From JBHIBR01 sp046759145 [NCBI: Nitrospinota bacterium] (GTDB lineage: Bacteria > UBA8248), in assembly GCA_046759145.1 (NCBI GenBank), contig JBHIBR010000102.1, positions 1 through 6,702 of the forward strand: 6,702 nucleotides of DNA, in the 5' to 3' direction. A model generated the notes under the pieces. That model was not told the DNA's origin, searched no databases, and worked only from the letters and a program-made list of their open reading frames with translations. Below, piece by piece: positions 967 through 5,015 of the stretch (positions are counted from its first letter, which is position 1; each line of letters opens with the position of its first letter). The position numbers were made by a program, and so were the translations under genes.

Positions 967-1000
967 GAAGAAAGAAAACCCCCGGCCCGGGGGCCGGGGG
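967..1000 (-). terminator. Rho-independent terminator of the UGSC selenoprotein operon
   Basis: A perfect 9-bp GC stem (979-987 with 992-1000, four-base loop) is followed on the minus strand by a T-rich tract, TTTTCTTTCTTC, at 978-967. It lies 22 bases beyond the stop codon of the minus-strand selenoprotein gene, the right place and orientation to end that operon. Read on the plus strand the hairpin has no following T-tract, so it probably does not terminate the fumarase-like operon. The rest of the 837-1021 gap shows nothing further that I can support. Confidence 0.75.
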
Positions 1001-1021: not shown

Positions 1022-1564
1022 TCAGCCGGCCAGCGCCCTCACTACCTGGGAGAAGGCTGCCCCGACCTTCCTCTCGACCTCCTCATCGGTCGCCACGGCG
1101 ACCGGATGTTCGAGCATGACGTAGGGGAGTTCCTCGTAGCCCAGCGCCCTCCGCTGCGACTGGGCGATGGTCTCGAAGGCGGTCGTGATGAGGCACGCGC
1201 TCGCCACACCCCTCTTCTCCAGCTCGACCGAGTCGCGGATACTCCACGACGTGCAGCTCCCTCATTCCCCCACCCCGGTGATGGCCGCGTGGCAGCGGGC
1301 GGCGAGGCCGTCGAGGACGTGCGGCTGCGCGGGCCGGGCGAAGTAGGGTTTCGAGACCATCACCACCTCCGCCACACCCGCTTCCTGGCGGAGCCGCTCG
1401 GCGATGCGCTCGAAGTAGCGGTTGGGGTGGAGCTTGCTGTTGTCCAAAAAGCCCACCACCTTGCCCCCGAGGTCTCCCAACCTCGGGTTCAGCGGCCCCC
1501 CTTCGGGGAAAGCGTCCGCCACCGGCTCCAGCACCACGATCCCTTCCTGTGTCGCGATGGCCAT
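1022..1564 (-). CDS. UGSC-family selenoprotein, with UGA (1262-1264) read as selenocysteine
   Basis: Two adjacent minus-strand frames are in the same register, separated only by the TGA at 1264-1262. Read through, they form one 180-residue protein with Sec101-Gly102-Ser103-Cys104 in the context ITGVGE-U-GSCTSW. This is the diagnostic motif of the UGSC (seleno)protein family, whose other members carry Cys (CGSC) at that site. Residues 35-60 (KVVGFLDNSK...) and 105-146 (TSWSIRDSVELEKRG..., ...LGYEELPYVMLEHP) continue the family pattern on both sides of the TGA, so a frameshift or random stop is unlikely. The UxxC pair suggests a thiol/selenol redox or nucleophilic site; the biochemical function is not established. 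There is no signal peptide or membrane segment, so it is probably cytoplasmic. The start is ATG at 1564, preceded by a strong GGGGAGGAGG Shine-Dalgarno. It lies 20 bases after the 351-residue gene, in an evident operon. Standard gene callers would miss it or split it. Confidence 0.9.
1232..1250 (-). promoter_or_regulatory. SECIS-like hairpin downstream of the UGA
   Basis: In the minus-strand RNA an 8-bp stem (GUCGUGGA at 1250-1243 with UCCGCGAC at 1239-1232, including one U-G pair) closes a GUA loop at 1242-1240. The loop begins 19 nucleotides after the UGA and its first base is G. Bacterial SECIS elements are known to be hairpins inside the coding region, about 16-37 nt from the UGA to the loop, with a G at the start of the apical loop. 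This one fits. SelB binding is inferred. The surrounding DNA is GC-rich, so hairpins by chance are common. Confidence 0.6.
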
Positions 1565-1584
1565 CTCCCTCCTCCCCGCGCCCC

Positions 1585-2640
1585 TCAGGGCATCTCCACC
1601 TTCTGGGTCACCGCCCGGGTCCCCCAGCCCGGGATGAAGAGCGAGTGGCGCCCCGCACCCCCTGCAACCGCGACCAGGATGTCCTCGGGCGCTCTAGCGA
1701 TGGGGACGAGCGCCTCCTCATCCGTCCGGTCCACCCAGCGGGGCCAGTAGTTCTTCTCCACATGCGGCCCGTACACGCCCCCGATCTTGAGCCTTTTCAC
1801 CGGGAGCTGGGTGATCTCCCACAGGAAGTACTGCACGTCCCGCCGCTTCCAGCCCCCCTCGGCCACGCTCTGGGCGTGCTCGGGGGAGAAGACGACCAGG
1901 GTCTCCCCCATGACGTAGTAGTGGTTGTGCGCGGTGGAGGTCATCGCCCCCGCCACGCCCGTGAGGAGGCGGAAGGGGTCGCGCTCCGAGTGGATGTTGA
2001 TGTTGTGGGGAGGCTCGCAGGCGTAGGCGGTCACCGCGCTCTCCTCCGGCCGCAGGCCGCGCGCCACGTGGAAAGGCTCCCAGGGGCTCTCCTCCTCGTT
2101 CTCGGCGGCGCAGTAGCTGAACTTGCCCGGGTGGCCGAAGGTGGCCTTGTCCGTCTCGCCGGGGATGCCGCCGCCGACGTTCATCATGATGAGCCGCAGC
2201 GCCCGGCCGATGGTGGCGTTCGCCCGGAAGCCGCTGCCGAAGCAGCCCGCCCCCGAGCAGAGCCCCGCCTCCTTCCGGATGGGCCCGTTCACCAGGAAGA
2301 GGGGGGTCACCATGTGGGTGGTGCTCTGCACGCCGTTGAGGTTGAAGCGCTCGTCCAGCAACGCCCTCACGCCCGCCACCACGACGGGGAAGTGCTCGGG
2401 CTCGCACCCCGCCATGACGGCGTTGATGGCGAGCTTCTCCACCGCTGCAGCTCCGTTCTTGGGCGGGACGTATCCCAGCGAGAGTTCCGGCTCCCAGTCC
2501 CCCACCATCCGGCGGACCAGCTCCGGGGTCGGGGGGACGACAGGAAGGCCGTCCGTCCAGCCTCGCTCGAAAAAAAGCTCGATGGCGGCGTGGGCGTCGG
2601 AGACAGCATGCTGCCGCGAGCGGAGGGATCCGCTAGCCAT
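1585..2640 (-). CDS. Conserved Cys/His-containing protein of unknown function, operon partner of the UGSC selenoprotein
   Basis: 351 residues starting at ATG 2640, with an AGAGGG Shine-Dalgarno at 2647-2652 and 6-base spacing. I cannot assign a named family. Segments that look strongly constrained are GWTDGLPVVPPT (residues 27-38), NAVMAGCEPEHFPVV (73-87), a CSGAGC pair of cysteines (C128, C133), the run NATIGRALRLIMMNVGG (141-157), HPGKFSYCAAENEE (170-183), YACEPPHN (206-213), HNHYYVMG (238-245) and the C-terminal VAGGAGRHSLFIPGWG (325-340). The five cysteines (79, 128, 133, 177, 208) and many His residues suggest a metal site or thiol chemistry. No signal peptide or membrane helix is seen. 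It lies directly upstream of the UGSC gene on the same strand, so the two proteins probably act together, for example as catalytic and redox partners. That link is an inference from context only. Confidence 0.88.
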   Translation of the reverse strand: MASGSLRSRQHAVSDAHAAIELFFERGWTDGLPVVPPTPELVRRMVGDWEPELSLGYVPPKNGAAAVEKLAINAVMAGCEPEHFPVVVAGVRALLDERFNLNGVQSTTHMVTPLFLVNGPIRKEAGLCSGAGCFGSGFRANATIGRALRLIMMNVGGGIPGETDKATFGHPGKFSYCAAENEEESPWEPFHVARGLRPEESAVTAYACEPPHNINIHSERDPFRLLTGVAGAMTSTAHNHYYVMGETLVVFSPEHAQSVAEGGWKRRDVQYFLWEITQLPVKRLKIGGVYGPHVEKNYWPRWVDRTDEEALVPIARAPEDILVAVAGGAGRHSLFIPGWGTRAVTQKVEMP

Positions 2641-2672: not shown

Positions 2673-2701
2673 ACTCTAGGGCGGGGGGGAGGCCCTGTCA
2701 A
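2673..2701 (-). promoter_or_regulatory. Promoter of the 351-residue protein / UGSC operon
   Basis: On the minus strand TTGACA (2701-2696) is followed after 17 bases by TAGAGT (2678-2673), a perfect -35 and a 4/6 match to the -10 consensus. The predicted start of transcription, near 2666, would give a leader of about 26 bases before the ATG at 2640. The -35 lies within the left arm of the inverted repeat at 2693-2720, so a protein bound there would compete with RNA polymerase. Confidence 0.5.
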
Positions 2702-4496: not shown

Positions 4497-4572
4497 GCGC
4501 CTGTAGCTCAGCGGAAAGAGCCACGGACTTCTAATCCGTAGGTCAGAGGTTCGAATCCTCTCAGGCGCGCCA
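4497..4572 (+). tRNA. tRNA-Arg (anticodon TCT)
   Basis: Full cloverleaf: acceptor GCGCCTG (4497-4503) pairs with CAGGCGC (4562-4568), discriminator G, encoded CCA at 4570-4572. The anticodon loop CTTCTAA at 4528-4534 gives TCT at 4530-4532, reading AGA/AGG. The T loop TTCGAAT is canonical. It is the first gene of a five-tRNA cluster and sits about 130 bases after the predicted start of transcription. Confidence 0.96.
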
Positions 4573-4593
4573 ACCGGAGGGGGCAGAGACTGT

Positions 4594-4670
4594 GGCGGGC
4601 GTAGCTCAACCGGCAGAGCACTGGGCTGTGGCCCCAGGGGTTGAGGGTTCGAGTCCCTTCGCTCGCCCCA
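4594..4670 (+). tRNA. tRNA-His (anticodon GTG)
   Basis: Acceptor GCGGGCG (4595-4601) pairs with CGCTCGC (4660-4666), with one G-T wobble. The extra G at 4594 is the encoded G-1 that pairs with discriminator C73 (4667), the identity feature of histidine tRNA. CCA is encoded at 4668-4670. Anticodon stem CTGGG/CCCAG encloses CTGTGGC, giving GTG at 4628-4630. It lies 21 bases after tRNA-Arg(TCT), consistent with a joint transcript. Confidence 0.96.
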
Positions 4671-4718
4671 GCTTTCCCCCGAAGTCCCGACCGCTCCGCC
4701 GGGGCCGGCGTCGCGGGG

Positions 4719-4795
4719 GCGCCCGTAGCTCAATCGGATAGAGCATCGGACTTCGGATCCGAGGGCTGTAGGTTCGAGTCCTACCGGGCGTGCCA
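4719..4795 (+). tRNA. tRNA-Arg (anticodon TCG)
   Basis: Acceptor GCGCCCG (4719-4725) pairs with CGGGCGT (4785-4791), followed by discriminator G and encoded CCA at 4793-4795. The first pair is therefore G1-U72 instead of G-C. The anticodon loop CTTCGGA (4751-4757) gives TCG at 4753-4755, reading CGA/CGG. T arm GTAGG/CCTAC with loop TTCGAGT is intact. The 48-base gap before it is the longest within the cluster. Confidence 0.94.
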
Positions 4796-4820
4796 GGAAG
4801 AGGGATGTGAGGATTCGCGT

Positions 4821-4896
4821 GGGCCGCTAGCTCAACTGGTAGAGCAACGGACTCTTAATCCGTGGGTTCGGGGTTCGACTCCCTGGCGGCTCACCA
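4821..4896 (+). tRNA. tRNA-Lys (anticodon CTT)
   Basis: Acceptor GGGCCGC (4821-4827) pairs with GCGGCTC (4886-4892), one G-U pair at 2-71, discriminator A, CCA at 4894-4896. Anticodon stem ACGGA/TCCGT encloses CTCTTAA, giving CTT at 4854-4856, which reads AAG, the lysine codon favoured in a high-GC genome. T loop is TTCGACT. Confidence 0.95.
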
Positions 4897-4931
4897 AATG
4901 GGTAGCAGGTTGCCCGCGGGGCGGGCGCGTT

Positions 4932-5015
4932 GCGAGGGTGGCGGAACGGTAGACGCGCTGGATTTAGGATCCAGTGCCTTCGGGCGTGGGGGTTCGAATC
5001 CCCCCTCTCGCACCA
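4932..5015 (+). tRNA. tRNA-Leu (anticodon TAG)
   Basis: Class II tRNA of 84 bases with a long variable arm (TGCCTTCGGGCGT-type stem-loop after the anticodon stem). Acceptor GCGAGGG (4932-4938) pairs with CTCTCGC (5005-5011), discriminator A, CCA at 5013-5015. Anticodon loop TTTAGGA gives TAG at 4965-4967, reading CUA/CUG. It is the last gene of the cluster and lies 89 bases before the tig start. Confidence 0.96.

Follow-up and report, generated by a model that had tools for sequence, protein, structure and literature searches.

A predicted UGSC family selenoprotein gene in a Nitrospinota bacterium, its recurrent partner gene, and remote kinship with the selenocysteine domain of GrdB and PrdB

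UGSC proteins have been described since 2008 as a major selenoprotein family in metagenome surveys; the same source suggests a thioredoxin-like fold and describes a UGSC/Unknown_1 fusion selenoprotein from the Global Ocean Sampling set (PMC2398784). A 2016 survey reports 33 UGSC selenoproteins in 26 organisms (PMC5029168), and a 2026 review places the family among selenoproteins whose function is largely uncharacterised (PMC13188914). Our literature search returned the phrase "UGSC family" in no paper, and SAR202 together with selenoprotein in none. For the glycine and D-proline reductases, the mechanism described has selenocysteine (Sec) presumably joined to the substrate through a Se-C bond, which is cleaved afterwards, and glycine reductase is described as forming a selenenylsulfide (PMC10298544). 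A GrdB-type pair, the proposed fluoroacetate reductase FarB/FarE of Cloacibacillus, is proposed to cleave the C-F bond of fluoroacetate; its description also covers multiple protein B sets within a genome, each specific to a substrate, and a FarE that is not a pyruvoyl pro-protein (PMC10838667).

Here we analyse a UGSC gene in a window (the whole stretch of DNA studied) of 6,702 nucleotides, contig JBHIBR010000102.1 of the Nitrospinota bacterium JBHIBR01 sp046759145; its features are collected in Table 1. The first-pass annotation of this DNA had proposed that one TGA splits two minus-strand frames of the same register, and that reading it as Sec restores the U-G-S-C motif of a known (seleno)protein family without an established reaction, with family-like sequence on both sides. 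The list of open reading frames and the translation bear this out. The ordinary frames cover 1262-1564 (100 residues) and 1022-1207 (61 residues), and translation through the TGA yields one frame of 180 residues that carries U-G-S-C at residues 101-104 and ends in a second TGA. Alignments to Pfam UGSC (PF24696; residues 11-179, 164.1 against a cut-off of 25 bits) and NCBIfam NF041046 (UGSC_fam; residues 34-178, 132.6 against a cut-off of 125 bits) both run across the stop, and since both curated cut-offs are exceeded the protein falls within the UGSC family by profile. Homologues likewise continue past the TGA, as the suggested alignment with UGSC and CGSC members made clear: column 101 holds Cys or Sec in 85/85 aligned members and column 104 holds Cys in 84/85, the alignment (A4) comprising 73 genome-locus hits that passed a length, score and strand filter, 11 plasmid sequences and the window. 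The expectation that such a gene would be annotated as broken also held, as the default frame ends at the TGA and the two Sec-type plasmid records examined show the same fate: the gene of Acidovorax p2-T1 (L001) is a "hypothetical protein" ending at the TGA, and that of Paracoccus pFER4 (L007) is split into two "hypothetical proteins". By its profile matches, the window gene adds a member to a selenoprotein family already known but of uncharacterised function, alike in profile match, UGSC motif and Sec/Cys column, with no difference in kind. The nearest relative found (L014) shares 52% identity with it, and the partner protein at that locus is 68% identical to the partner in the window.

Table 1. 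Features of the window, with positions on the 6,702-nucleotide stretch
Feature	Position	Strand	Basis
Predicted UGSC family selenoprotein gene, 180 residues, Sec101	1022..1564	minus	Read-through translation and family profiles
In-frame UGA codon, predicted Sec101	1262..1264	minus	Translation; column Cys/Sec in 85/85
Cys104 codon, second residue of the UxxC pair	1253..1255	minus	Cys in 84/85 aligned members
SECIS-like hairpin, 7 bp, nt 15-21 with nt 27-33 (U of UGA as nt 1); apical loop with GU at nt 23-24	1232..1250	minus	Pairing statistics
Partner protein gene, 351 residues, upstream in the likely operon, 20 bases before UGSC	1585..2640	minus	Open reading frame and profile/neighbourhood analysis
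Purine-rich, ribosome-binding-like stretch ahead of the UGSC start	1567..1575	minus	Read in sequence
Sigma-70-like promoter match (10/12) upstream of the partner	2673..2701	minus	Consensus match only
Terminator-like hairpin and T-rich tail after UGSC	979..1000	minus	Consensus match only
Five tRNA genes (Arg, His, Arg, Lys, Leu), immediately ahead of trigger factor and clpP	4497-5015		

Profile comparison shows the UGSC domain to be remotely homologous to the C-terminal, Sec-bearing domain of GrdB and PrdB (PF07355), the Sec subunits of protein B of glycine reductase and of D-proline reductase. In hhalign, the UGSC profile aligned Sec on Sec over 90 columns with the C-terminal sequences of 12 GrdB/PrdB-like proteins of related genomes (probability 94.5, score 54.1); none of 150 column shuffles exceeded 22.7, and no score among 17 unrelated alignments exceeded 24.0. 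GrdB-like sequences alone scored 52.9 and PrdB-like sequences alone a weaker 35.5; this lower score and the extent of only about 90 columns weigh against the overall reading. The profiles used (A6, 74 rows; A7, 66 rows) contained only the window and genome-contig proteins. The likeness extends to a shared E-x-x-G context after the Sec and to the use of a second protein beside the Sec subunit. The window protein itself gave no match to PF07355, only PF24696 being listed at E ≤10 with HMMER filters that drop most matches above about 0.1. The AlphaFold2 model of UGSC (pLDDT 94.7) is a five-strand alpha/beta repeat of strands and helices, with Sec101 right before the helix that follows strand 93-99. 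Foldseek and VIA-align matched this model to alpha/beta folds of a generic kind only, with no thioredoxin among the matches listed; for a model of a UGSC-partner fusion, the matches listed covered mainly the UGSC part and barely the partner, with no GrdB/PrdB entry among them. These fold matches are compatible with either reading, and our data favour the GrdB/PrdB kinship over the thioredoxin-like fold. Some UGSC-bearing genomes also hold PrdB-like Sec proteins with a U-P-x-C motif (L100-L104, five fetched), and other such genomes hold full GrdB-like genes (L093-L099) together with GrdE-like genes.

The second protein sets the UGSC system apart from these reductases. Glycine and proline reductases employ GrdE or PrdA, and the UGSC partner is not detectably related to either: its profile scored 13.1 against 10 Gly_reductase (PF09338) sequences, with 60 shuffles averaging 16.2 and reaching 22.3, a difference that we count against the analogy. 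A relationship of the partner to the part of GrdB that precedes the Sec end was also considered and rejected, the score of 21.3 lying within 60 shuffles (maximum 25.8). FarB and FarE are described as GrdB and GrdE homologues of anaerobes (PMC10838667), and the UGSC partner is of another kind. At E 0.01 it matched neither Pfam nor NCBIfam, PDB sequence searches with UGSC and with the partner gave nothing convincing for either, and we found no relative in single-protein searches of genome contigs and viral contigs or in a partner-profile search of viral contigs. The UGSC/Unknown_1 selenoprotein shares the fusion of UGSC to a second domain (PMC2398784), and the partner is plausibly that Unknown_1 domain, likened by description and not by sequence.

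The constancy of the partner suggests that UGSC very probably works together with it. In a plasmid search made with the partner, independently of UGSC, all 20 UGSC records were among the 24 partner records with adjoining coordinates, these 20 including 5 from Neorhizobium and 3 from Paracoccus and so not being independent. Across window, plasmid and genome loci, the partner lies on the same strand within 600 nt of 91/96 UGSC domains and within 1500 nt of 95/96, counts that are biased because it was the partner profile that retrieved the genome loci. A betaproteobacterial metagenome bin (G021, the genome of L069; L116-L165) was searched with UGSC alone, and there the partner lies within 400 nt of 30/30 fetched copies. 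Conversely, 8 of the 79 partner-derived genome loci are without UGSC, some of them, not all, at contig ends. Gene order varies among loci, and the two are often fused: partner and UGSC share one frame with no other stop at the 12 genome loci that served for the fusion model, as do 18 of the 30 copies from G021, where the single TGA was confirmed. The AlphaFold2 model of a natural fusion has a pLDDT of 93.9 and a pTM of 0.93. We infer that the two proteins make physical contact, and in the window they are likely the two genes of one operon. Within the partner, D30, N141, G145, R146 and E180 are invariant in 90/90 sequences, with Cys at position 79 in 89/90 and at position 177 in 80/90; this alignment (A5) holds 78 of 84 filtered genome hits (6 were left out by hand), 11 plasmid sequences and the window. 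On two haloarchaeal plasmids (L005:4846-7581 and L006:4851-7531) the arrangement is partner-UGSC-partner, two different partners flanking one Cys-type UGSC.

We consider it probable that the best overall explanation is a Sec-read UGSC protein acting with its partner in GrdB/PrdB-like chemistry on carboxylates, the similarity of chemistry being drawn from the distant relationship to the GrdB/PrdB Sec domain. The partner would hold or activate the substrate, and the UGSC selenolate would attack it, either displacing a group from carbon or becoming oxidised by the substrate. A selenenyl intermediate could then be resolved by Cys104 and a thiol reductant of the thioredoxin type, and the conserved partner cysteines Cys79 and Cys177 possibly join in this resolution. 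The reaction, substrate and reductant named here are inferred. By analogy, the role may be Sec-dependent reductive cleavage of C-N, C-O, C-S or C-halogen bonds in small carboxylic acids taken up for catabolism, which we put forward tentatively. FarB/FarE offers a precedent in kind, with a GrdB-type Sec subunit proposed to attack the C-X bond of a small carboxylate (PMC10838667).

Gene neighbourhoods bear on this proposal. Among 93 sources, with each neighbour cluster named from one representative, the recurrent neighbours were TctC receptors (19 loci), CoA transferase III (16), luciferase-like monooxygenase (10), SDR (9) and enoyl-CoA hydratase (9). In G021, TctC genes lie within 2.5 kb of 23/30 UGSC copies against 52% by chance (P 0.005) and within 500 bp of 16/30 against 29% by chance (P 0.0045). 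A strong association of TctC with UGSC was rejected as only modest: 20 UGSC-free G021 contigs hold 50 TctC genes in 400 kb, and TctC-type receptor density in these control regions (L166-L185) is very high. Thioredoxin reductase (TrxR)-like genes occur at 5/12 Cys-type loci against 1/68 other genome loci with UGSC, a comparison in which Cys type is confounded with plasmid origin and two of the five, those at L010 and L011, resemble annotated TrxR at just 26-35%. In the window, Pfam and NCBIfam profiles recognised no TctC, CoA transferase or TrxR gene, which we count against the proposal. Taken together, GrdB/PrdB-type chemistry, the neighbouring genes and TrxR near Cys-type copies lead us to favour reductive carboxylate cleavage, tentatively.

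Two other functions would fit part of this evidence. UGSC could be a general thiol/selenol oxidoreductase, serving antioxidant defence or disulfide exchange, with the partner as client or scaffold. Its UxxC motif, its published description as probably thioredoxin-like and the TrxR genes that adjoin several Cys-type copies, once with thioredoxin, are all consistent with such a role. We nonetheless judge it unlikely in view of the remote homology to GrdB/PrdB and of the modelled strand-helix repeat with Sec right ahead of a helix; up to dozens of copies per genome and a partner beside every G021 copy fetched would also be unusual for a housekeeping reductase. Less likely still, UGSC and its partner could form an isomerase, lyase, racemase or other non-reductive enzyme in which Sec or Cys is the nucleophile. 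The often catabolic neighbours (TctC, CoA transferase III and enoyl-CoA hydratase) would suit such an enzyme, as would partner residues D30, N141, R146 and E180 in substrate binding, but the UxxC pair, with C104 in 84/85, and the TrxR genes beside Cys-type copies indicate redox turnover. We therefore retain reductive cleavage as the working proposal.

Whatever the reaction, codon 101 is almost certainly read as Sec, judging by TGA conservation and by a SECIS-like hairpin beginning 14 nt downstream of the UGA's U. TGA stands at the motif in 78 of the 82 UGSC domains from 79 genome loci (retrieved with the partner profile as the best 80 of 588 candidates), Cys in 3 and neither in 1. In the phylum of one related genome (G012), 72/95 genomes carry the family, with exactly one in-frame TGA in each among the matches listed. 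Over all 93 sources there are 96 UGSC hits, 15 of them without TGA; 12 of these have Cys, and both TGA and a Cys motif are missing from L062, L012 and L013. The last two, in Sporomusa (L012:5278-7032) and Vibrio (L013:4158-6005), are UGSC-partner fusions that have aconitase X genes nearby and read D-M-G-T-S where the Sec/Cys motif would stand, so that the Sec/Cys site is gone and the partner kept. One TGA-bearing copy (L046:722-1240) reads U-G-S-S, not U-G-S-C. On a quick tree the distribution of Sec and Cys requires 7 changes, at least 3 of them forced by starred branches, with details left unsure by long branches.

The hairpin is supported by its pairing statistics, from which one TGA copy cut by a contig end (L066) is left out. 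The 79 Sec sequences make 6.38 of the 7 pairs on average, whereas synonymous codon redraws give 4.31 (sd 0.15), with 4.70 as the highest value in 200 draws; the window has 7/7 pairs and the GU loop, with a probability of 0.002 under such redraws. The loop GU is found in 76/80 Sec genes and 0/12 Cys genes; this G and U presumably match those of the E. coli fdhF SECIS. Among 104 distinct Sec sequences, those of G021 included, pair 21-27 occurs as G-C 80 times and as C-G 22 times, pair 18-30 as G-C 87 times and as C-G 8 times, and the loop GU is present in 95. These G-C/C-G swaps are compensating changes. Counted against the hairpin, Cys genes average 4.9 of the 7 pairs and 8/12 of them still form 5-7, so that the conserved peptide accounts for some of the stem. 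In a divergent fused subgroup (L061:17447-18901, L036:12550-14169 and L040:184-1500) the stem after the UGA is different and GC-rich.

Sec machinery in related genomes is consistent with this decoding. Among 24 Sec-type genomes, SelB is above cut-off in 22, SelA in 21 and tRNA-Sec at or above 63 bits in 23; all three are at 0/3 in the Cys-type genomes. We drew the tRNA-Sec line at 63 bits because other tRNAs score in the 47-50.8 range, and the gathering score of 47 is also reached by the Cys-type genomes G026 (47.0) and G027 (50.8). The exceptions are G007, without SelB, SelA or tRNA-Sec; G010, with SelB in pieces; G001, with a SelA fragment at a contig edge; and G006, with no SelA above cut-off. 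In the G012 phylum SelB does not discriminate, since it is near-general with or without UGSC (above cut-off in 62/72 genomes with the family and 22/23 without); the 10 UGSC genomes without SelB above cut-off are drafts, two with fragments at contig edges.

Set against these data, a TGA that is a real stop in a decaying pseudogene or a sequencing error is very improbable: a standard gene caller does terminate the frame there, but the same codon is TGA in 78 of 82 domains elsewhere, family sequence is conserved on both sides, and the hairpin and the Sec machinery of relatives speak for decoding. Weakest of all is a genome-wide reassignment of TGA, to Trp or Gly for example, for which no support was found, since TGA is the true stop of both UGSC and partner in the same operon and a genome-wide residue code thus does not explain the in-frame TGA, Cys stands in 12/15 homologues without TGA, and relatives carry tRNA-Sec and SelB.

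The remainder of the window looks like ordinary chromosome. Besides the tRNA genes it holds a tartrate dehydratase/fumarase beta-like (TtdB-like) gene, an amidohydrolase gene, a MobA-like gene, trigger factor and clpP, and the TtdB-like, amidohydrolase and MobA neighbours had no match in 92 loci.

Our analysis adds to the UGSC family a constant partner gene, a hairpin test, a GrdB/PrdB relationship and large copy numbers in some genomes; partner, hairpin and GrdB/PrdB kinship were absent from the first-pass annotation. Among 27 genomes, UGSC matches, which may be copies or fragments, number 58 in G021, 36 in G023, 35 in G010, 34 in G020 and 1-9 in the rest. In G021, 54 of the 58 matches have an in-frame TGA, three with a further stop and some being fragments; in the 30 copies fetched, the TGA was located within the motif. 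G021 is a metagenome bin in which mixed strains could inflate this count. UGSC selenoprotein genes also lie in metagenome bins titled Bordetella parapertussis (L060, L067 and L083), a species label that looks doubtful. The largest bacterial selenoproteomes named in the 2026 review hold 57 and 63 genes (PMC13188914), and the G021 UGSC family by itself would approach them.

UGSC and its partner may, as a more speculative possibility, constitute a separate class of Sec-dependent two-subunit reductases that share only the Sec domain with glycine and proline reductase and have an unrelated activating subunit. Such enzymes would break C-X bonds of organic acids in soil, groundwater and ocean lineages, with dozens of substrate-specific copies in some genomes. 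Collectively, the fixed partner, the tie to GrdB/PrdB and the large copy numbers turn an "unknown" family into a concrete assay.
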